From IMG/VR virus record IMGVR_UViG_3300025411_000079, positions 1 through 25,053 of that record: 25,053 nucleotides of DNA, one strand, 5' to 3'. The position numbers were made by a program, and so were the translations under genes. Source of the DNA: a virus. Of the stretch, positions 5,113 through 15,454 are shown piece by piece; the first letter of the stretch is position 1; each line of letters begins with the position of its first letter. The notes under the pieces were generated by a model. The model was given only the letters and a program-made list of their open reading frames with translations, was not told where the DNA came from and did no database searches.

Positions 5113-8006
5113 CTTTCTATTGCGTGAAAAGCATAATCGTGACCGTTGGTTTCAATTATCTCTTCTTCATTACTTATTGTACTTTTCTCTTGAAGAGAAA
5201 CAACTTTTCTATTATGTTCAACCCAATATTGGTCAGCAAGTTCTAAACTGTTTTCAACATACATAAAGAACGGATCACGGCCCACACGATTCCAAAATAA
5301 AACTTCACTATCAGCAAGAGTCATTACTTCGTCAAATTTATCTTGACCACTCTCTTTTAATGGAAAACCATTCACTAATTGACATTGATTTTTAGTAAAA
5401 TATTGTCTTTCTTGAGGATTTTCTACTAATATGCCATCTCTTATTTCAGGTTTGAATGCACATAATAAAGGTTCAATACGCTTATTAAAATTATTCAAAT
5501 AACGAGCAACATTGTAATCACCTTTTAAATCAGGATTATCATTTATGTCTTTTTCAGAAATCATATAACAATTCACCTCGATGTAATTCATTGGCATCGG
5601 TTTACCATAAGCTATGTAATAATCTTCTTGTTGTTTTTTAGTCGCTTTGGTAATTTTTTGAACATCCCCTGAAGATTTTTTAACTCCATTATTAACATAA
5701 TAGATAGTGTCACCTAAACCTGCAGGATAATCATTTTGAATTATTAGTTCCATATGCGCTTGACGAGACATTAATGAACCTGACTTTGTGGTTTTTTTTA
5801 TGTGCTTTTTATAATCTTCAACTGATTGTTTTACACGTGCCTTGTTTGCTATTTTTGCTAATGGAATTTCTTTATTGTAAATTTTTTCTACATATGAATA
5901 ATAAAGTTCAACAAAAGAATGTCCATCACCATTTAACAAATATTTTAAACCCTCATCCAAAAATTCAACAATGTATGTTTGTAATTTTTTTGATTTAATT
6001 GTATTACCTGTAAGCTTTATTTTTTCCTTTCCTTTCTTAATCATTTTAATGATGTAATTCTTTCTGGAAACATTTATACAAGCAGGTGCAATATAATCGA
6101 TATCCAAGCCCATCTCATTTCTCATAAAGATATCATTGAACTCAGCTGTATCAGCTTCAATGCCTTTATATTCTTTACCACTTTCTGTTAATTCATTCGA
6201 TCCCTTACCAATGTAAATATGAGTATCAATATCTTCGGGAGTTTCAAAATTCACACCATCCGTATCCATAACCAAAGGTTTATAACCTTTCTTCATAAAA
6301 AACATAATCATCATACGGAGACATTGCCTACCCACACAAGTAATAGTTTCACCCATATTCATATCACCCCAAGGAAATACGTGAGGAGCTGACAAACTTC
6401 CGAAATAAGCGTTGATGAAAATCTTGATTGGTAATTGTTTACGATCATACATTTCAGCCTCCACAGGGTTACTGTTTTTTAGTTCTCCTGCAAGTCTTTT
6501 ATATTTAATACGAATATTACGGAAATATTTTAACATTGATTTTTGTACACCCATCACATCACACTCAGGAAATACATCGTAAACTAACTGTATAGATGGA
6601 TAAAGAGACGCATAGTCAAACTTAACAATGTTCTTCGAGTAACCAACGTTTAATAATCTTGATAAACCACCAGTGATTGCACGTTTTTCATCTTTAGCGG
6701 GAATTGCTAAATTATTTTCATAAGACCAAGCTAACATTATAATTTTCCATAATGTAGCCGTACCCATTGTTGCAACTCTTTCGTATGTTGTTGGTACCAA
6801 TTTAGAAAGTAAGAAAGTAGATTGCGAGAAACTATCATCAACGACCATAGTTTCTGTTAAGTCATCATCAAGATATTGCTCAACAATTTTTCTACCAGGC
6901 CATATTTCAAATTTACCAGGAAATTTATCTAAAAGACCTTCTGTTCCCACATCACCTATTTTTTTGTACTTTCCTGTCTTTGGATTGACATAATAGCTCT
7001 CATTATCGAGATAAATCTTAGATATTTTCCCACCATCGACATAAACACGATTAGGTTTTTCTTTTTCTAAGTACTGTGTTATATACTTTAATCCCCAAGA
7101 TTTAATCTCTGAGTTTATTGCTTGAGCTCTTCTAACAGAATGTGCAATATCAATTAAATTAAAACCCCAAATAACGTGTTGTGTGTATGGTTCAACCTCA
7201 TTTGCCAATTTCAACATTGCCTCTTTTTCTTTCATACCTTGTAGATTGAATATTTGAGTTAATGCTGTAACATCTACACCTAATATCTTCGCACGTTTAA
7301 GAATAAATGGCCAGTCAAAAAAGGCCGAGTTATAGCCACCTATAATTGTAGGTTTTAATTCTCTAATATATTTAAAAAACTCTTCAATACATTTTTTTTC
7401 ACCATCCTCACCAAATGCAGGAATTGTTTTTTGCAGACCTTTGTTATCCTTAATTCCTATTAAAATTATAGAACAAGTTTCAGGATCCAAACCTGTCGTT
7501 TCAATATCGAATACAAATCTATGAACACCACCATAATCTTCAATACCTTTGAATAATCTTTTCTTTTTTTGAATCAAATATTGTTCAACAGGATTCAATA
7601 CAGTGAAATATTGTTTGAAATTTTCATTCCAAGGGTCTATACCTCCATATCTGAAAAAATTAATTAAATCAGTATATGTTTTAAGACTTCTAACCAAGTA
7701 TTTCATACCTGCTTCTAATCTTTCGTTTCCTTGTGTTTCTAATTTATCAATAATGATTCCGTGCTCTACCATTTTCTTTTTTTGTAGAGACTTTGATTCT
7801 TTATAAAACCCTAAACCTGTTAAATCACCAACCCAAAGAAATGGGGTGAATGTATCTTGTTTAATGATTTTACCCTTATCAGGGTCTTGAATAATTTTGG
7901 AAATTATATTTGTGGGATAATCGTACTCGACTCCGACGATGTATTTTTCATCGTCTCCACCATTGAGGAATTGTTCAATAACCTCTTGAGAGATAACCTC
8001 TTGCAT
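5109..8006 (-). CDS. 43: Family B DNA polymerase with 3'-5' exonuclease (T4 gp43-type replicative polymerase)
   Basis: Protein of 965 residues, the usual size for phage family B replicases. Exonuclease motifs: Exo I FDIETTG (D167, E169), Exo II IIGGYNSAFFDWPF (N226, D231) and Exo III near Y378-D382. Polymerase motifs: motif A KFDYASLYPS (D464), motif B PIKIFINAYFGSLSA (about 526-540) and motif C VMDTDGVNF (D581, D583). Motif C reads DTDG where T4 has DTDS. Both metal-binding aspartates are kept, so activity is expected. The C-terminal roughly 100 residues (from about 860) contain LFWNRVGRDPFFMYVE and an acidic tail, and may include the clamp-binding end, though I see no clear motif. No intein or intron is visible. 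The start is the ATG at 8006, with A/T-only sequence before it and no Shine-Dalgarno. The 98-base region upstream presumably holds its promoter. Confidence 0.96.
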   Translation of the reverse strand: MQEVISQEVIEQFLNGGDDEKYIVGVEYDYPTNIISKIIQDPDKGKIIKQDTFTPFLWVGDLTGLGFYKESKSLQKKKMVEHGIIIDKLETQGNERLEAGMKYLVRSLKTYTDLINFFRYGGIDPWNENFKQYFTVLNPVEQYLIQKKKRLFKGIEDYGGVHRFVFDIETTGLDPETCSIILIGIKDNKGLQKTIPAFGEDGEKKCIEEFFKYIRELKPTIIGGYNSAFFDWPFILKRAKILGVDVTALTQIFNLQGMKEKEAMLKLANEVEPYTQHVIWGFNLIDIAHSVRRAQAINSEIKSWGLKYITQYLEKEKPNRVYVDGGKISKIYLDNESYYVNPKTGKYKKIGDVGTEGLLDKFPGKFEIWPGRKIVEQYLDDDLTETMVVDDSFSQSTFLLSKLVPTTYERVATMGTATLWKIIMLAWSYENNLAIPAKDEKRAITGGLSRLLNVGYSKNIVKFDYASLYPSIQLVYDVFPECDVMGVQKSMLKYFRNIRIKYKRLAGELKNSNPVEAEMYDRKQLPIKIFINAYFGSLSAPHVFPWGDMNMGETITCVGRQCLRMMIMFFMKKGYKPLVMDTDGVNFETPEDIDTHIYIGKGSNELTESGKEYKGIEADTAEFNDIFMRNEMGLDIDYIAPACINVSRKNYIIKMIKKGKEKIKLTGNTIKSKKLQTYIVEFLDEGLKYLLNGDGHSFVELYYSYVEKIYNKEIPLAKIANKARVKQSVEDYKKHIKKTTKSGSLMSRQAHMELIIQNDYPAGLGDTIYYVNNGVKKSSGDVQKITKATKKQQEDYYIAYGKPMPMNYIEVNCYMISEKDINDNPDLKGDYNVARYLNNFNKRIEPLLCAFKPEIRDGILVENPQERQYFTKNQCQLVNGFPLKESGQDKFDEVMTLADSEVLFWNRVGRDPFFMYVENSLELADQYWVEHNRKVVSLQEKSTISNEEEIIETNGHDYAFHAIES

Positions 8007-8104
8007 ATTTTATTTTATTTAATGTGACGTATTAGCTTGCGATTAAATCACAATTTGCCTTGTTTACAATATTAAATATACAAAAACAAAAGGGTAAAAA
8101 AAAA

Positions 8105-8491
8105 TTATAAAGAAATATTATTTGCCACCTCAACAATTTTTACAAAATCATCATATGCTAAAATAAAAACTTCTACATTAAACTGTTCTTCTAAAAATTT
8201 TATATGTTCTAAAACAGGTTTTGGAAAATCTTTATATAATCCTCTTATTATATAAAACTTATCCATTTTGTGTTTTCTATAATATTTGAAAATTTTTTGA
8301 GGAAGTTTATCGATAACACTACCACTACTATTTTGATTAGTACAATCGGCGTAAATCTTTTTACTTACAGTTTCAATTATAAAATCAATATCACTGTTAC
8401 CGCCTGATTTGAATGTGTAGTTATATTCTTTAAGAAAGTTAGAAAGTTTTTTTTCTAATTTGGCTCCGCTTACATTAATAGGATTTGTCAT
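8105..8491 (-). CDS. Small protein resembling a PD-(D/E)XK nuclease fold
   Basis: Protein of 128 residues. It opens with GAKLEKKLSNFLKEY (helix with E13), then SDIDFIIE (D34, D36), IYADCTNQ (D49) and GSVIDKLPQKIFKY (helix), then a hydrophobic strand KFYIIRG. This order of Glu helix, D-I-D strand, (D/E)-x-K strand, then Q...GS..DKL helix is that of small restriction-endonuclease-like proteins. The third motif reads D49-C50-T51, so the usual catalytic lysine is Thr. It may be inactive or use another residue. The fold call is inference from pattern. The gene sits between the polymerase and the fibre block, and a recombination or Holliday-junction role is possible but not shown. A TATTTATAA sequence lies 21 bases before its ATG. 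Confidence 0.45.
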   Translation of the reverse strand: MTNPINVSGAKLEKKLSNFLKEYNYTFKSGGNSDIDFIIETVSKKIYADCTNQNSSGSVIDKLPQKIFKYYRKHKMDKFYIIRGLYKDFPKPVLEHIKFLEEQFNVEVFILAYDDFVKIVEVANNISL

Positions 8492-8532
8492 TTAAAATTC
8501 AATAATATTAAATTATAAATAAAATTTTTGAA

Positions 8533-8901
8533 TTAGAAAATATTAATGTATAATTTTTCTCTAACCGGCAATATTAAAGTACCTGTTGAATTTAAATTTG
8601 TGTCTCTAAAATATATTGTTATTTTACCTTCATATTTACCCACGCGACGTGTTTGCTCACAATTGAAATTATAAACAATATAATAACTTGTTGTTGTTTG
8701 ATTATATAATTCTGTCTTAGTAGTTATATAACAAGAAGCATCTAATATGAATGGTTCATTTGTAGTTGAATCTGACATTTCGAATCTGATAACAGCATTC
8801 TCTAATTGATCGTTAAATGATGACATATCATTTTTACCATCATCTATAAGTTGTAATTTTAAAATTGGTGTGGTTGAACCTTGTCTGATAAAAAATTCCA
8901 T
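8533..8901 (-). CDS. Baseplate/fibre beta-sandwich protein, BppU N-terminal-like
   Basis: Protein of 122 residues. It has the form IRQGSTTPILKLQLIDDG, then AVIRFEMSDSTTNEPF, YYIVYNFNCEQTRRVGKYEG and ITIYFRD, ending LILPVREKLYINI. This pattern (RxGxTxPx, then a V-x-F-x-M strand, then a G-x-Y-x-G strand) is that of N-terminal domains of BppU-type baseplate upper proteins (DUF2479-like) in many phages, where they attach receptor-binding proteins. The ATG at 8901 follows ATATTTATAA by three bases, directly after a strong terminator. The first 16 codons are duplicated at 10429-10488. Fibre or baseplate role likely, exact position in the virion unknown. Confidence 0.6.
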   Translation of the reverse strand: MEFFIRQGSTTPILKLQLIDDGKNDMSSFNDQLENAVIRFEMSDSTTNEPFILDASCYITTKTELYNQTTTSYYIVYNFNCEQTRRVGKYEGKITIYFRDTNLNSTGTLILPVREKLYINIF

Positions 8902-8913
8902 ATGTTATAAATA
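8854..8913 (-). repeat. Master copy of a 60-bp duplication (start of the BppU-like gene plus its upstream box)
   Basis: This 60-base stretch covers the first 16 codons of the 8533-8901 gene and the TTATAAATA (plus strand) sequence before it. It matches 10429-10488 at 56 of 60 positions by hand alignment, with no gaps. Two mismatches lie in the coding part and two between the ATG and the box. Confidence 0.9.
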
Positions 8914-8914
8914 T
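8905..8914 (-). promoter_or_regulatory. Start-proximal ATATTTATAA box before the BppU-like gene
   Basis: On the minus strand ATATTTATAA ends three bases before the ATG at 8901. It takes up nearly all of the 13 bases between the U-run of the upstream terminator and the start codon. Similar boxes occur at the same distance before several other genes. It could act as a -10-like promoter element or an initiation signal. Inference only. Confidence 0.45.
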
Positions 8915-8942
8915 AAAAAAAAGGAGATTTTTACATCTCCTT
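8915..8942 (-). terminator. Rho-independent terminator after the T-G-S fibre gene
   Basis: On the minus strand AAGGAGAT, a six-base loop and ATCTCCTT form a perfect 8-bp stem followed by a run of T. It begins seven bases after the stop codon of the 8950-9972 gene and ends 13 bases before the next ATG. It is the clearest terminator in the window. Confidence 0.9.
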
Positions 8943-8949
8943 CTGTATT

Positions 8950-9972
8950 TTAATATAATTGAACAATTCCTCGATATGTGAACGTTCCTGTGTCTGTAAC
9001 TTTTAATTGCGCATAACTACCACTGAATGCAACGGTAAATGTCGGATTTGGTGCACCTGCACCTGAAGTTACTTTAGAATCACCACCAATAGTTGAATTA
9101 ATGGAACCACCCCCTTGAGCAACAATATAATTACTATACGCCGTCACCTTATTTGTACTATCTTCAACAGCTGCAAACGCGTAGGTCGCCGCTTGATAAG
9201 ATGATGTCAAAAATTGATGAATCACATAATTATTTGGATTTGTAATTGATGTTGCTAAAATATTTGTTTGTGCGGTTGAATCCATAATCAAGGAACCGCT
9301 ATTGATTGTTAATGAACCTGTGATTAATGCTGAACCAGTAACATTTAAAGAACCTGTTATTGTTTGTCCTGAAATAAACACGTTTGAACCGGTTATCGCA
9401 AATGAACCTGTATCTAAATCTGTTAGTATTTTATGTGTATTAATAAAACCGCTACCTGTAATGTTCAAACTACCTGTCAATTGTGTGTTACCAACTTGAT
9501 TTAATGTACCATCGTGTTTATAAGCTCCGCTAATATAAGAAAACGAACCTGTCTGAGCCAAAAATGATGCTGAACCAACTAATTGCATATTACCTGCAGA
9601 AACCAATAACGCACCACTCACATTTGATAATGTAGTGTTCGGTTGACCAGGGATACCCGCGATATTGATAGACCCCGACGATACAAATATATCTGCAAAT
9701 GGTCTATCTAACGTACCAAGAGTGGCACCTCTTGCTGTATTAGGTACAATATTACCACCAAGGGTAGTTGTACCTGAAATAACAAGATTACCATCTATTT
9801 CTATATTGTTATTTGTAGTCCAACCCGTGCTTGTTTGATGAAAAATTGAACCTGTAAGGAGATTACCCACACTAATTTGACTTGTAACACCTGAACTTAC
9901 TATAGGTAATACGTCAGTAGATAAAGGGGTTGTTATTGAGGGTAAGGCCGATATTCGTTGATCAGTTGCCAT
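8950..9972 (-). CDS. Phage tail fibre protein with T-G-S repeats
   Basis: Protein of 340 residues. The N-terminus MATDQRISALPSITTPLSTD, followed by VLPIV and ISVGNLL, is a known form of fibre attachment region in phages. Residues about 130-230 carry regularly spaced T-G-S triplets (for example LTGSLNITGSGF near 165 and ITGSLNVTGSALITGSL near 205), about 6-12 residues apart. Such strings usually form a trimeric beta-helix or beta-prism shaft. The last 110 residues have a different, globular composition (SSYQAATYAFAAVEDSTNK, then FTYRGIVQLY) and may be the tip. No intramolecular chaperone or peptidase domain is seen. The start overlaps the upstream stop as TAATG, so it is translated with the 9972-10397 gene, and a terminator follows. 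Confidence 0.8.
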   Translation of the reverse strand: MATDQRISALPSITTPLSTDVLPIVSSGVTSQISVGNLLTGSIFHQTSTGWTTNNNIEIDGNLVISGTTTLGGNIVPNTARGATLGTLDRPFADIFVSSGSINIAGIPGQPNTTLSNVSGALLVSAGNMQLVGSASFLAQTGSFSYISGAYKHDGTLNQVGNTQLTGSLNITGSGFINTHKILTDLDTGSFAITGSNVFISGQTITGSLNVTGSALITGSLTINSGSLIMDSTAQTNILATSITNPNNYVIHQFLTSSYQAATYAFAAVEDSTNKVTAYSNYIVAQGGGSINSTIGGDSKVTSGAGAPNPTFTVAFSGSYAQLKVTDTGTFTYRGIVQLY

Positions 9973-10397
9973 TATATTTTAATTTTATTATTTGATTCTT
10001 GTAATAAATAACTACCATCTTCATTGAGAAGAAAAATAGTAGACCAATTATTCCAAAATCCATTATTTGTTAAGTATGTTGATGCGTCATTTCCCGATGT
10101 AAAGATTTGTCCTGCAGCTTTATTAGCAAAATATAAAAAAGAACTCTCATCAAAATTTTTAGATCTGTAGAAATCCACTGATGCTGTCAAACCAGAAACT
10201 TGTGTAGTTGTAGAGTTATCAGGAACGCTTTTTGCAATTACATAACCCGTTGATTCATCAGGTCCCATCCACCATTTAACTCCACCATAATCCAAATCAT
10301 ATCTTTCATTTGAATTGGAAATTGCTAAGTGTCCAACTTCCTCTGTATCAGGTATTGTTGAACCAGTGTTATAAGCGAAAAGCCTTGTTGTAGCCAT
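9972..10397 (-). CDS. Fibre-associated structural protein (141 aa)
   Basis: Not a named family that I can prove. It has MATTRLFAYNTGSTIPDTEE, then GHLAIS, GGVKWWMGPDESTGYVIA and a Tyr/Asn/Trp-rich second half. The module with W-W-x-GPDE-x-x-GYVIA resembles short modules in fibre and baseplate proteins of Bacteroidota phages. Its stop overlaps the start of the fibre gene (TAATG), so it may be a fibre subunit, adaptor or chaperone. Two tandem GATATTTAT(A/G)A boxes precede its ATG at 10397. The surface-exposed aromatic residues would suit receptor contact, which is inference. Confidence 0.6.
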   Translation of the reverse strand: MATTRLFAYNTGSTIPDTEEVGHLAISNSNERYDLDYGGVKWWMGPDESTGYVIAKSVPDNSTTTQVSGLTASVDFYRSKNFDESSFLYFANKAAGQIFTSGNDASTYLTNNGFWNNWSTIFLLNEDGSYLLQESNNKIKI

Positions 10398-10400
10398 ATA

Positions 10401-10427
10401 TCATAAATATCTTCATTTATAAATATC
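10401..10427 (-). promoter_or_regulatory. Tandem GATATTTAT(A/G)A boxes before the fibre operon
   Basis: On the minus strand GATATTTATAA (10427-10417) and GATATTTATGA (10411-10401) lie 16 bases apart. The second ends three bases before the ATG at 10397. The first also encodes the last codons of the 19-aa remnant ORF. Likely a phage promoter or initiation signal for the 9972-10397 and 8950-9972 pair. Confidence 0.45.
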
Positions 10428-10476
10428 TTAATTTTAAAATTGGTGTGGTTGAACCTTGTCTAATGAAAAATTCCAT
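10417..10476 (-). pseudogene. 19-aa truncated duplicate of the BppU-like gene's start
   Basis: An ATG at 10476 opens MEFFIRQGSTTPILKL, identical over 16 residues to the start of the 8533-8901 protein. It then reads RYL and stops at TAA (10419-10417). It has its own CTATTTATAA box three bases upstream. The two differing coding bases are synonymous. It is either the stub of a duplicated gene whose body was deleted, or a retained leader peptide. The identical peptide despite base changes hints at recent origin or selection. Confidence 0.75.
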
Positions 10477-10488
10477 AATTTATAAATA
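10429..10488 (-). repeat. Second copy of the 60-bp duplication
   Basis: Matches 8854-8913 at 56 of 60 positions. It lies in the 99-base gap between the 1376-aa protein gene and the fibre operon. The match ends at codon 16 of the ORF on one side and just past the TATAAATA (plus strand) box on the other. Confidence 0.9.
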
Positions 10489-10496
10489 GTTTTATT

Positions 10497-13400
10497 TTAA
10501 CAAGGTGTATTATTAATTGTTATTGTTATTGGTCCGCTACAAGTTCCGTATATATCTATTCTACTTGTTTGACTTCCACCGCCACCTGTGGTACAATATG
10601 TGTTACCAAGTGAATCCGTAACATGTACATAAACACCTGTATTAAATGGATATGTAAAATAAATGTAGAAAGGTTCTGTCGAATTATTACTAAAATAATA
10701 ACTATATCTTCCCGAACCTCCATTTACAATACCTGAATATGTATTTCCACTCACATGTGTTGTGATATTTTGTCCAAGATAACTCATTCCTTGTATAACT
10801 TGTGAAGTGTTATTTATTATATCAAAATTAATTGTATAACAAACGAATGTAGGAGTTGGTGTTGGTGTCGGCATTGTTTGTGTTGGCGTTGGTGTCACAC
10901 TATGTGTTGGTGTGTTTGTCACACTTACAGTTGGTGTAGCAGTCATTGTTGAGCTAGGTGTATGTGTTGGTGTATTTGATAATGTAATACTTGGTGTTGG
11001 TGTATTAGTATGAGTAGGTGTAACAGTTACTGTAGGTGTTGTAGTTGGTGTAATAACTACCGCACTTGAACTTGGCGTTGGAGTACTTGTAACACTTACT
11101 GTAGGTGTAAAACTATGAGTAGGGGTTATGCTTATAGTTGGTGTAGGAGTTGATGTCACCGCTATAGTTGTTGGGGTCGGAGTTGGTTCACCACCCTTAT
11201 CATATACGGAAATAACAATAACATCATTTGCATTAAGAGATAAACCAGTTAGAGATAATGTATCTTGATTCAAAGATATTTCAGAAATTGTTACGATATT
11301 ATTTTTTGTTACAATAACGTCAAATAAATTACCGCTACTATTATCGAATAAAATATTTATCACATCACTACCAGTACCTGTTACGGAAGGGTGTGAATAT
11401 AAACCACCATAGTTATTAGCATTAAGAGGGAATGCATTGAAATCTAATACTTGAGTAGCGCCACTAATCGTTAATCCGGTTACTACTATACCACTTGCAT
11501 TTGTATCATTATGAATAAGTATTGTAGGATTTGGTGGATAAACAAAATATCCATTATATGTTAAAGTATTAAATTCAAATTTACCCATTTCTTGGAATGG
11601 AACACAATTTTGAGTAAATAAATTCATTGTAGTTCCTGTTGATTCCACAAAAAATGTGTCTGTGGCACTTGTATTAATAAAAGTATAACCATCAGCTTCA
11701 GGTGTACCTCCTTTCCACAACGTTGCCTTCAAAAAAACAGGATTAACACCTACTTGACTATAAAAAGTTGAAGTAAAAGTTATTTCTATATTATGAGAAC
11801 TAGGATTTTGAATTTTGAACTGATTCAAATCAAATAAAACCGCTTCTGCGCCTGTACCGTGATTATCACCACCATAAATCAAATAAGGCGTTCCTGTATA
11901 TGGGTAAGTATCCATACTTGGACCTGCGCAAGTACCCACGTAATCATAATAATTACCGCCTGTTACTTGAACAGCATTGGAGTCCCCACTATTACTTAAC
12001 ATTATAGATGGGTTGGAAATATATGTTATTGTATCAGTGTCTAAACCGTCAGTAAAAAAATATTCAACGACCATATAATCAAAATCGAACGTAAAACCTG
12101 ACGAAGGAATTGAACCAAAACCTGTTGGTGTTGGTGTAGTTGTAGGTGTTGGTGTCATCCCTAAAGTTGCAGTTGGCGTTGGTGTCGCTGATACACCTAA
12201 TGTTGAAGTAGGTGTAGGTGTATGACTAATTGTTGGGGTTGGAGTATTTGTGTGTGTTGACGTAACTGTTATAGTAGGCGTCGGTGTAACGGTACTTGAA
12301 ACACTTACTGTAGGTGTTATAGTGTTTGTAGGCGTTGCAGTCGGCGTTAAACCTTGAGTTACCGACGGCGTAGGTGTAATTGTAGATGTAGGTGTATTAG
12401 TAGGTGTACTCGTTGGAGTCGCTGTTGGTGTTTCAGTTGGTAAAGGAGTATAAGTAAAACTTACAAAAACAGGTAATCCTGTTCTGAAATTACTTACACT
12501 ACCACTTGTTAAATTTAAATCAGGAGCATAAAATGTAACATAGGTAACTCCCGATTCAGAAACTATGTCTACTCCTGATGGATCACCACTATATGTAACA
12601 CTTATACTATCTTGACAAAATGTAACAAAATATATAGTATTTTCTAAGTTATTGAAATATGTTTCTTGATTAGTTCCATAAGCATCAATCATTCCAAATA
12701 AACAAGTATCAAATGAATTTGGATCATAAGTGACATCACCTGAAATATCAAGAAAAACTATTGAATTATTTGTATCTGATGGTTGAGTAATAGGTGTTGA
12801 TAATAAATTATATCTTATTCCTGTACAAGAACCAACTACATTTGTTGTAGTAGGTGTTGGAGTTGCTGTAGGCGTTAAACCTGGTGTAACCGTATGAGTA
12901 GGAGTTATACTTGGAGTAATCGTCACAGTTGGTGTTGGAGTTGGAGTTAATGTCGATGTTGCCGTAGGTGTTAATCCCGGAGTTACTGTCACAGTTGGTG
13001 TAACAGTAGGTGTAGGTGTATTAGTCGGAGTTGCTGATATGTCGATAGAACGTAAAAGATTAAAATCCTCAACGCAAGGTCCACCACATCCATATATATT
13101 AAAATTTGGCATTATCTCTGTAATATATTTATGATAAATATGAACATAATCTAAAGGTTGTTCATAATATTGTATTTGTTTTATGTTGAAACAACAAGTT
13201 CCTTCGTGAACTCCTCCCATTAAACTTGGACCACCTCCCCAAGATTGAACAAATGGTTGATATCCTCTTGTAGAAGGCACAATTTCAATCCAATTTTGTT
13301 TTTTGTAGATTGGGTTTCCATTTAAATAAATTTTTAATTCACCCATTCTATCTTGTAAACCATTCCACCACTTTAAATCTAAATTTTCTATTAATTCATA

Positions 13401-14627
13401 TTTTTCAGTTTGTCCTGAAATAATTGCGTTAGGATCGTTGATTAAAGTTTTACCTGAAATCATATCGTTCCAACCCCCTCTGTTATTTACATCACAATAA
13501 TCATAATGATTATATCTATTGAAAACAATCGAAATGTTGAAATCAGTAGTTAAACCTGAAGAACAAATTGTTGGTGTTTCATCTGTATCCACATAATAAT
13601 CATAAGAATAACCATTTGTTGTATCACAATCACCAGAATATCTTACTGATACCCATCTTATTTTTCCTTCGGGTGTAAATTGAAATGAAAGATTATTGTC
13701 TGCATATTTTGATATGTCATCTTCACCTCTTACACCAAAATAATAAAATGTTCGTCCTTGAGACCAATCTAAACCCATTCTATTAAAAACAAAATCTAAT
13801 GTCCACCCACTTTGTGTTCTTCTTTCTAAAATAGGGTCACAAAAATCATCACCTGAACCTGTATTAAACTCATAAGCCCAAGGTTTAACATTTAAAGCGT
13901 CAGGTTGAGGACAACAAGCTCCTGAATAATATGTGGTCGCTGTGAATGGTTCGATTGGGAAATCGGGAGTAGAACCTGTTAATGTCCATCCAGATACAAC
14001 AGCAAATGAACTTTCACCATAAAACCATTTAGACTGAGGATAATTAACATTACCTGTGAAATATTGTGAATCTGTCCAAGGAGTTTTATTTGATTCCGCA
14101 AAAAATGGTGGGTTAATAAATTGACTTATCCCTAAAGGACAAGCAAATATCGAAGGAGTAAAACCTGAAATAATTTCAGATTCAGTAAAACCTGATAACA
14201 ATGGATCAATAAAAAGGGAATCATTGTAATTTGAAATAATAAAATAATGAACTTCTCCTGTTATACCTATAAAAGTAAAAGTATCATTATTTAAAATAGT
14301 GTTTTCATATGATAAACCCCCAAAAGTATCGAAATAATTAATCCAATTAGCATAGTCAATTGTAAAAGATAAACCCGAATAGATATAACTTGAATCGTAC
14401 GTGCGGTAATCAAATTCATTTATTGAAATAGTATTTATATTACAACTATATCCTAACATACTTTCATTAATTTTTAATGATGAATATGTAATAGGAGTAT
14501 TAAAATTGATAACCTCAGTATCATAATCACCTTGAACTGGTGATAATTGATAATCGAATAATTCTGAATAATCTACCCTAATATCTAGTTTAGACCCATA
14601 ATAATTTAAAATATTTTGACTCGCCAT
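10497..14627 (-). CDS. Giant multidomain fibre/adhesin with LamG-like domain and three mucin-like Thr/Pro linkers
   Basis: Protein of 1376 residues. Layout: an N-terminal region (1 to about 240) rich in Tyr and Asn; a concanavalin/LamG-like segment (about 250-525) with WTLDFVFNRMGLDW, FYYFGVRGE and GELKIYLNGNPIYKKQNW; linker 1 (about 532-595); a small domain (about 598-725) with CTGIRYNLL; linker 2 (about 726-836); a larger domain (about 840-1145); linker 3 (about 1147-1258); and a C-terminal domain (1260-1376) with four Cys. The linkers are almost only Thr, Pro, Ser and Val in T-P-T, T-V-T and PGLTPTAT units. Such chains are extended and are often O-glycosylated in secreted proteins. No signal peptide is seen, as expected for a virion protein. 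Likely a long flexible receptor-binding fibre. The LamG assignment is by pattern. The ATG at 14627 follows a GATATTTATAA box by four bases. Confidence 0.8.
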   Translation of the reverse strand: MASQNILNYYGSKLDIRVDYSELFDYQLSPVQGDYDTEVINFNTPITYSSLKINESMLGYSCNINTISINEFDYRTYDSSYIYSGLSFTIDYANWINYFDTFGGLSYENTILNNDTFTFIGITGEVHYFIISNYNDSLFIDPLLSGFTESEIISGFTPSIFACPLGISQFINPPFFAESNKTPWTDSQYFTGNVNYPQSKWFYGESSFAVVSGWTLTGSTPDFPIEPFTATTYYSGACCPQPDALNVKPWAYEFNTGSGDDFCDPILERRTQSGWTLDFVFNRMGLDWSQGRTFYYFGVRGEDDISKYADNNLSFQFTPEGKIRWVSVRYSGDCDTTNGYSYDYYVDTDETPTICSSGLTTDFNISIVFNRYNHYDYCDVNNRGGWNDMISGKTLINDPNAIISGQTEKYELIENLDLKWWNGLQDRMGELKIYLNGNPIYKKQNWIEIVPSTRGYQPFVQSWGGGPSLMGGVHEGTCCFNIKQIQYYEQPLDYVHIYHKYITEIMPNFNIYGCGGPCVEDFNLLRSIDISATPTNTPTPTVTPTVTVTPGLTPTATSTLTPTPTPTVTITPSITPTHTVTPGLTPTATPTPTTTNVVGSCTGIRYNLLSTPITQPSDTNNSIVFLDISGDVTYDPNSFDTCLFGMIDAYGTNQETYFNNLENTIYFVTFCQDSISVTYSGDPSGVDIVSESGVTYVTFYAPDLNLTSGSVSNFRTGLPVFVSFTYTPLPTETPTATPTSTPTNTPTSTITPTPSVTQGLTPTATPTNTITPTVSVSSTVTPTPTITVTSTHTNTPTPTISHTPTPTSTLGVSATPTPTATLGMTPTPTTTPTPTGFGSIPSSGFTFDFDYMVVEYFFTDGLDTDTITYISNPSIMLSNSGDSNAVQVTGGNYYDYVGTCAGPSMDTYPYTGTPYLIYGGDNHGTGAEAVLFDLNQFKIQNPSSHNIEITFTSTFYSQVGVNPVFLKATLWKGGTPEADGYTFINTSATDTFFVESTGTTMNLFTQNCVPFQEMGKFEFNTLTYNGYFVYPPNPTILIHNDTNASGIVVTGLTISGATQVLDFNAFPLNANNYGGLYSHPSVTGTGSDVINILFDNSSGNLFDVIVTKNNIVTISEISLNQDTLSLTGLSLNANDVIVISVYDKGGEPTPTPTTIAVTSTPTPTISITPTHSFTPTVSVTSTPTPSSSAVVITPTTTPTVTVTPTHTNTPTPSITLSNTPTHTPSSTMTATPTVSVTNTPTHSVTPTPTQTMPTPTPTPTFVCYTINFDIINNTSQVIQGMSYLGQNITTHVSGNTYSGIVNGGSGRYSYYFSNNSTEPFYIYFTYPFNTGVYVHVTDSLGNTYCTTGGGGSQTSRIDIYGTCSGPITITINNTPC
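10855..11188 (-). repeat. Thr/Pro-rich coding repeat, linker 3
   Basis: About 330 bases of degenerate GTTGGTGT-type repeats (plus-strand reading) encode roughly 112 residues of TPTPT-like sequence with a longer SSSAVVITP break. Codon choice for Thr and Pro varies from unit to unit, so this is not a freshly expanded perfect repeat. Confidence 0.9.
12122..12451 (-). repeat. Thr/Pro-rich coding repeat, linker 2
   Basis: About 330 bases encode around 110 residues of T-P, T-V and S-V units, with QGLTPTATPTNTITPT and LGVSATPTPTATLGMTPTPT blocks. The GLTPTATPT block also occurs in linker 1, which points to exchange or a shared origin of the linkers. Confidence 0.9.
12846..13035 (-). repeat. Thr/Pro-rich coding repeat, linker 1
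   Basis: About 190 bases encode roughly 63 residues, with the block TVTPGLTPTAT occurring twice about 34 residues apart. The repeat is internal to the gene and in frame throughout. Confidence 0.9.
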
Positions 14628-14631
14628 GTTA

Positions 14632-14666
14632 TTATAAATATCTTTAGTATTTTTTGATATTTATAA
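14632..14666. promoter_or_regulatory. Divergent control region: perfect 11-bp inverted TTATAAATATC pair
   Basis: TTATAAATATC at 14632-14642 and its exact reverse complement GATATTTATAA at 14656-14666 are separated by 13 bases. They sit between the divergent ATGs at 14627 (minus) and 14681 (plus). Read toward each gene, the nearest copy is GATATTTATAA, 4 bases before the left ATG and 14 before the right. Read the other way, each copy contains TATAAATA, the T4 late promoter core, 30 and 40 bases before the opposite gene. Either reading makes it a two-way promoter. It could also be an operator. Confidence 0.6.
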
Positions 14667-14680
14667 AAAAGCATATTTAG

Positions 14681-15454
14681 ATGAATAATTTTATAAAACA
14701 GGTAATCGAAGAGAAATTTGCTTCAAAAGCACAACAAAGATATTTCTACGCACAAGCAGGAAAAGGTGGTAAAAAGGGGAAAAAATGGTCTAAGTGGGCG
14801 AAAGAATTCTCAGATAAAACAGACTATGAAAAAATTCCTGAAAAAGTTGAAAACGAGGAAGAAGAAGTTGATGAAATTGTGGATAGCAAGGGTAATATAG
14901 CAAGAAGTAAAAAACCAACTGATTTAGCAACAAAAGGTATTTCAGATACAAAAACAAGTGATGAAGTTGCTCAAACAGCATATGGTCAAATGGGTATTCA
15001 CGGTATTGGTGGTACACACACATCATTGAGATATTGGGCGGAAGGTAAACAACCTAAAGGAGATATGGTCGAAGTTGAGTTAGATAATAATTTGGGAGCT
15101 GAAGAGACTATTTTGAAAAACAAGACATATGAGGAAGCTAAAAGATATTTTATAAAAGAATTAGGTTTGGATGAAATAGAGACTGAAAAAAGATTAAAAG
15201 AAATGGGTTATGATCCTAAATTACCTGATGATATGGTTAATTTAGTTGAAAATCCAATGAAATTTATGGAAGAATATATTGAGAACAAACTTAAGAAAAA
15301 ACAAGAAGATGAAAATGATGTTCTTTCCAAACAAAAAGGTAAAGAATTAGACAAAATAATAGTTAGACAAATTGAAGCTTTAAAACATAGTATGGATAGT
15401 CATAATATTTCTATAAATGATTTATTAGATTATCTAAAAAAAGAAGATGAATAA
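14681..15454 (+). CDS. Uncharacterised, possibly packaged or prohead-associated protein (257 aa)
   Basis: Not a recognised enzyme. The N-terminus is a short amphipathic helix (MNNFIKQVIEEKF), then SKAQQRYFYAQAGKGGKKGK, a very basic stretch, then WAKEFSDKTDYEKIPEKVE. The S-K-A-Q-Q-R-(F/Y)-(F/M) motif is seen in many small phage proteins of unknown function. The middle contains GQMGIHGIGGTHTSLRYWAEG, and the last 110 residues are highly charged and helical (for example LKEMGYDPKLPDDMVNLVE, then a Lys-rich coiled stretch). It is the first gene of the rightward block and overlaps the next by 8 bases. A prohead core or internal head protein is plausible, as is a nucleoid-type DNA-binding protein. 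Confidence 0.7.
   Translation: MNNFIKQVIEEKFASKAQQRYFYAQAGKGGKKGKKWSKWAKEFSDKTDYEKIPEKVENEEEEVDEIVDSKGNIARSKKPTDLATKGISDTKTSDEVAQTAYGQMGIHGIGGTHTSLRYWAEGKQPKGDMVEVELDNNLGAEETILKNKTYEEAKRYFIKELGLDEIETEKRLKEMGYDPKLPDDMVNLVENPMKFMEEYIENKLKKKQEDENDVLSKQKGKELDKIIVRQIEALKHSMDSHNISINDLLDYLKKEDE

Follow-up and report, generated by a model that had tools for sequence, protein, structure and literature searches.

A stranded gene start beside a fibre module as the probable scar of module insertion in an uncultured phage group

The short open reading frame at positions 10,417 to 10,476 of the window (the whole 25,053-nucleotide stretch, IMG/VR record IMGVR_UViG_3300025411_000079) is, most probably, a recombination scar: the displaced start of a resident baseplate-like gene, left as a by-product of the insertion of a module whose acquisition was homologous on one side and apparently illegitimate on the other. 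A scar of this kind is of an ordinary type but is unusually legible, and a single step in the exchange of fibre modules appears to have been caught in this uncultured phage group, with the empty site, the donor lineage and both junctions readable.

The repeated gene start and its open reading frame

The features involved in the repeat are the following:
8533–8901, minus strand: intact 122-aa baseplate-like gene (BppU-like in the initial annotation), with 80 homologous loci kept of at least 151 and a weak fold match to the phage NF5 baseplate protein 9m8o_P
10429–10488, minus strand: stub, i.e., 60 nt comprising the box and codons 1–16 of the resident baseplate-like gene, separated from the gene body; 56/60 identical to 8854–8913, and 67/67 to a close relative when the flank is included
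10417–10476, minus strand: 19-aa ORF created by the junction, with 16 resident codons and 3 insert codons
10417–10427, minus strand: GATATTTATAA box bordering the insert; in a module-bearing relative, L007, two tandem boxes precede the 141-aa gene, and the first of them corresponds to this one

The 60-mer at 8854–8913 (minus strand) comprises a box, a spacer of 3 nt and codons 1–16 of the 122-aa gene, and its copy 1575 bases away is identical at 56 of 60 positions, a match for which the chance expectation in 25 kb is ~4e-17. Alignment of the copies agrees with the initial annotation in that the first 16 residues are the same and both coding changes are synonymous (TTT/TTC and ATC/ATT); the other two differences fall in the spacer before the ATG (CAT vs ATT). 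The ORF reads MEFFIRQGSTTPILKLRYL*, with the new three-residue end RYL, as annotated, and a stop inside the second box, GATATTTATAA. The upstream box, described as repeated, is indeed found before both copies, but the intact gene has TATATTTATAA, which differs from GATATTTATAA at one base. The copy does lie in a gap by the fibre operon, more precisely between the fibre gene (10497–14627) and a pair of genes for 141-aa and 340-aa proteins. The proposed count of further copies gives only these two: neither the window nor the 38-kb record contains the 60-mer a third time.

An assembly artefact was considered and ruled out: two contigs from other metagenome assemblies (3300025418_001646 and 3300025426_000065) contain both copies and are 99.98% identical to the window, with 2 differences in 14–16 kb, so that the stub is not a peculiarity of a single assembly.

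The empty site, the module and its junctions

The features of the insert and its surroundings are:
9972–10397, minus strand: 141-aa gene of the module, related to the N-terminal domains of multi-copy proteins in other phages (73% identical in L007, L013, L014 and L086; family in L087–L097)
8950–9972, minus strand: 340-aa gene of the module, chimeric, with an L007-like first half and an L125-like second half
8919–8944, minus strand: intrinsic-terminator-like hairpin closing the module
8887–8913, minus strand: baseplate-like gene start brought by the module (box, spacer and first codons), with the L007 allele at 3 of 4 sites
8879–8886: right crossover, homologous, bracketed by positions 27 and 36 of the 60-mer
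10428–10429: left junction between resident gene and insert, apparently illegitimate, where identity to L005 ends, the homology to the L007 module starting no more than a few bases away
10496–10874, minus strand: C-terminal tip of the fibre gene (379 nt), which forms a second indel between the window and L005, across the stub from the insert

Alignment of the region in related phages, a check put forward with the initial annotation, identified a close, module-free relative (L005, IMGVR_UViG_3300021138_000333) that has an uninterrupted full gene at the spot of the stub. In L005, the end of the fibre gene is followed by ATAAAACTATTTATAAATTATGGAATTTTTCATTAG, which leads directly into the complete baseplate-like gene, with nothing between the two genes. 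The window stub is identical to L005 over 67/67 nt, including the flank and both synonymous changes, and in L005 the full gene body follows; therefore, the stub is the resident gene's own start rather than a mutated version of the intact copy. On one side, the window and L005 are the same over the final ~265 nt of the fibre stalk; on the other, the DNA that starts with the baseplate-like gene and extends into the polymerase gene is ~99% identical over the first kilobases, with long perfect stretches. A full gene at this spot in a related genome had been taken in advance as the mark of simple decay; such a gene is present in L005, but it points to displacement by an insert rather than to simple decay.

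In the window, the 141-aa gene, the 340-aa gene, the hairpin and the second gene start lie between the stub and the intact gene. The module is also found in L007, L013, L014 and L086, where the 141-aa gene (73% identity) and a 340-aa relative (62%, N-terminal half) precede the baseplate gene (L086 ends before this gene), and the tandem boxes before the 141-aa gene are the same as in the window. The insert occurs in a donor-type lineage of which only 62–73% relatives, and not the exact donor, were found. In L087–L089 and L092, two or three neighbouring proteins that differ greatly in length have a relative of the 141-aa protein as their N-terminal domain, as expected for exchangeable adhesin modules.

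The two junctions appear to be of different kinds. Within the intact 60-mer, three positions (10, 11 and 24) agree with L007, position 27 differs from both parents, and from position 36 onward all 11 informative sites are those of L005; given this switch, the right crossover was homologous and is confined to ~8 bases, a base-level limit on a homologous exchange. The first 27 nt of this copy differ from L005 at 4 sites, compared to a local rate of 0.9% (p ~1e-4). The start allele alone fails to single out L007 because CAT and TTT are the consensus of the whole family as well, and the mismatch of position 27 with both parents counts against the scar account. At the left end, identity to L005 stops after codon 16, in AT-rich sequence that has at most a few bases in common with L007, itself only a 62–73% relative; this junction looks illegitimate.

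We propose that the ancestor would have resembled L005, with the fibre gene, the TATTTATAA box and the baseplate-like gene, and would have acquired the module (141-aa gene, 340-aa gene, terminator, box and baseplate-like gene start) from an L007-type phage, presumably in co-infection. Under the simplest account, one homologous and one illegitimate crossover would have joined a module-bearing phage to two resident genome copies. The right end would derive from homologous recombination inside the conserved baseplate gene start, within ~8 bp (AGACAAGG), and the left end from illegitimate joining after resident codon 16, either onto another resident genome copy or by template switching, although the order of these events and the strand mechanics can only be surmised. 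With the left crossover placed deeper in the gene than the right one, the start would be repeated and the stub left: the resident's promoter box and opening 48 coding bases would be stranded upstream of the insert, and the working gene would be rebuilt downstream from the start of the module and the body of the resident.

The initial annotation had suggested a gene duplicate that lost its body, and a partial copy with an intact start would also result if the whole baseplate-like gene had been duplicated in tandem and one of the copies had then lost its body. We consider this scarcely credible and reject the decayed duplicate on the alleles: one copy is that of L005, where the same start is still joined to a full gene, and the other is L007-like. 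Moreover, the break of the stub coincides with the start of the module homology, and none of the relatives has two full copies.

A further reading is reversible excision, with the 60-bp direct repeats allowing the module to loop out and restore the L005 layout, and with the repeat being kept for this removability. An in-silico join of the stub to the gene body, which supports the scar account as well, matches L005, a very close relative of the window phage, at 244 of 245 bases, as predicted for the excision product, and L005 could indeed be an excision product of a window-like genome, although the stub would still need an earlier module-free state. Nevertheless, retention for excision appears quite unlikely. 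L005 also lacks the 379-nt fibre tip, so that a single excision is insufficient to generate it; all three stub-bearing contigs carry the module; there is no other stub among the 80 loci; and the synonymous nature of both coding differences (chance 4–13%) fits divergence within a working gene. Of the readings advanced in the initial annotation, homology for fibre-module swapping comes closest to the insertion scar that we favor, in that swapping is the cause of the repeat, but not the reason to keep it.

The second indel, which adjoins the stub, shows that this locus changed more than once and also counts against the scar account. The fibre tip is found in the window clade and is absent from L005, and no relative of it was detected in the viral contigs.

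The baseplate-like gene start as a border across the phage family

The 80 loci were retained from at least 151 viral-contig stretches that encode the baseplate-like protein. The 122-aa protein has no match among Pfam and PHROG profiles; its AF2 model (pLDDT 75) has the phage NF5 baseplate protein 9m8o_P as the top Foldseek match, a weak one (E 9e-3, TM 0.58). Neither this protein nor the DNA of positions 8000–14700 has a match in 50,697 phage records, although the protein is encoded in so many viral-contig stretches; the family appears to be uncultured.

Across the 80 loci, the polymerase gene is usually next downstream, whereas the upstream gene content differs in nearly every relative. In 56 pairs with baseplate genes at least 90% identical and unlike upstream DNA, which by our count collapse to roughly ten independent comparisons, identity breaks between 0 and -58 of the baseplate start, in many cases at -12, where the TATTTATAA box begins. 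The baseplate start is thus a recurrent border of the hypervariable fibre region; borders near the start are no proof of a recombination hot spot because selection for intact genes would place them there too. The gene start has no clear extra constraint at the DNA level, its first codons following the invariant MEFFIRQG and the usual codon bias, and searches of the 80 loci by DNA and by peptide revealed no stub outside the window clade. One might conjecture that, in a large uncultured phage family, fibre modules dock time and again at the baseplate-gene start with its late promoter, and that the 60-bp repeats produced by docking allow precise, reversible removal of modules; we regard this as improbable, but if true, it would amount to a slow host-range switch.

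Next to the exchange border, a 128-aa protein (8105–8491) with an invariant YADCTNQN is present at the locus only in the window/L005 clade. In its AF2 model, the predicted order of elements resembles that of a PD-(D/E)XK nuclease, with weak Foldseek matches to EcoT38I and Hjc.

Among published models, homology-facilitated illegitimate recombination that leaves displaced gene remnants, proposed for the effector-immunity arrays of the Vibrio cholerae T6SS (PMC5361080), comes closest. There, as here, one end of the module is anchored by homology, and the old gene, or a part of it, remains beside the insert; the other end is joined illegitimately, as it seems to be in the window. Unlike those arrays, the present case concerns a tailed phage whose exchange presumably took place in a co-infected cell, and what remains is limited to the first 48 coding bases, the gene being rebuilt downstream. 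In PeSL promoter-terminator cassettes, known in T4-type phages according to the work cited in PMC4503421, the exchange borders also lie at a terminator and a promoter between modules, comparable to the hairpin and box at the right border here. In contrast to PeSL as presented in that source, the homology here is the conserved baseplate gene start, the promoter is a TATTTATA late-type box instead of an early sigma-70 promoter, and there is no array of repeated cassettes, the 60-mer occurring in just two copies in the window and the 38-kb record. On the coding strand at the border, no sigma-70 site stands out, and the hairpin is present. Relaxed homologous recombination at mosaic borders in phages also leaves homologous traces at the edges of recently exchanged fragments (PMC3945230), in this respect resembling our locus; that study demonstrates it in temperate coliphages with Rad52-like recombinases. 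The window locus is a new, well-resolved instance of a known recombination type.

The TATTTATA box and possible retention of the stub

The stub retains a plausible promoter and start codon, and the initial annotation had suggested that it is kept as a promoter-leader module. According to such a scheme, the late-promoter box would drive the 141/340-aa operon and the short ORF would couple translation; the TATTTATA at -12, an enriched start-proximal element of this phage group, is intact in the stub. We find this very hard to support. A separate box (TATTTATG) stands at -12 of the 141-aa gene, and it is present also in the stub-less L007; among the 80 loci, the stub is confined to the window clade; and its synonymous changes occur in the working gene of L005 as well. 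Furthermore, the event is too recent for conservation to reveal selection (in the 60 nt, 0.5 changes would be expected and there are 0). If the 19-aa peptide is expressed at all, this would be incidental. A short ORF with a conserved start, an intact promoter and only synonymous changes can thus be a scar and not a gene, which calls for caution in the annotation of small ORFs in phages.

The TATTTATA element occurs at -31 to -11 of 49 of the 249 dereplicated starts, compared to 2.75 expected from shuffles; 20 of the 49 are located at exactly -12 and none is nearer than -11. In reverse complement, this element equals the T4 late box TATAAATA. It has the look of a late promoter from which transcripts could begin at the start codon, and its placement suggests leaderless mRNAs in this uncultured phage group. 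Such boxes are found at positions 8905–8915, 10401–10427 and 14632–14642 of the window, among others, and in loci L005–L079, and a late-sigma-like protein is encoded at the window end.
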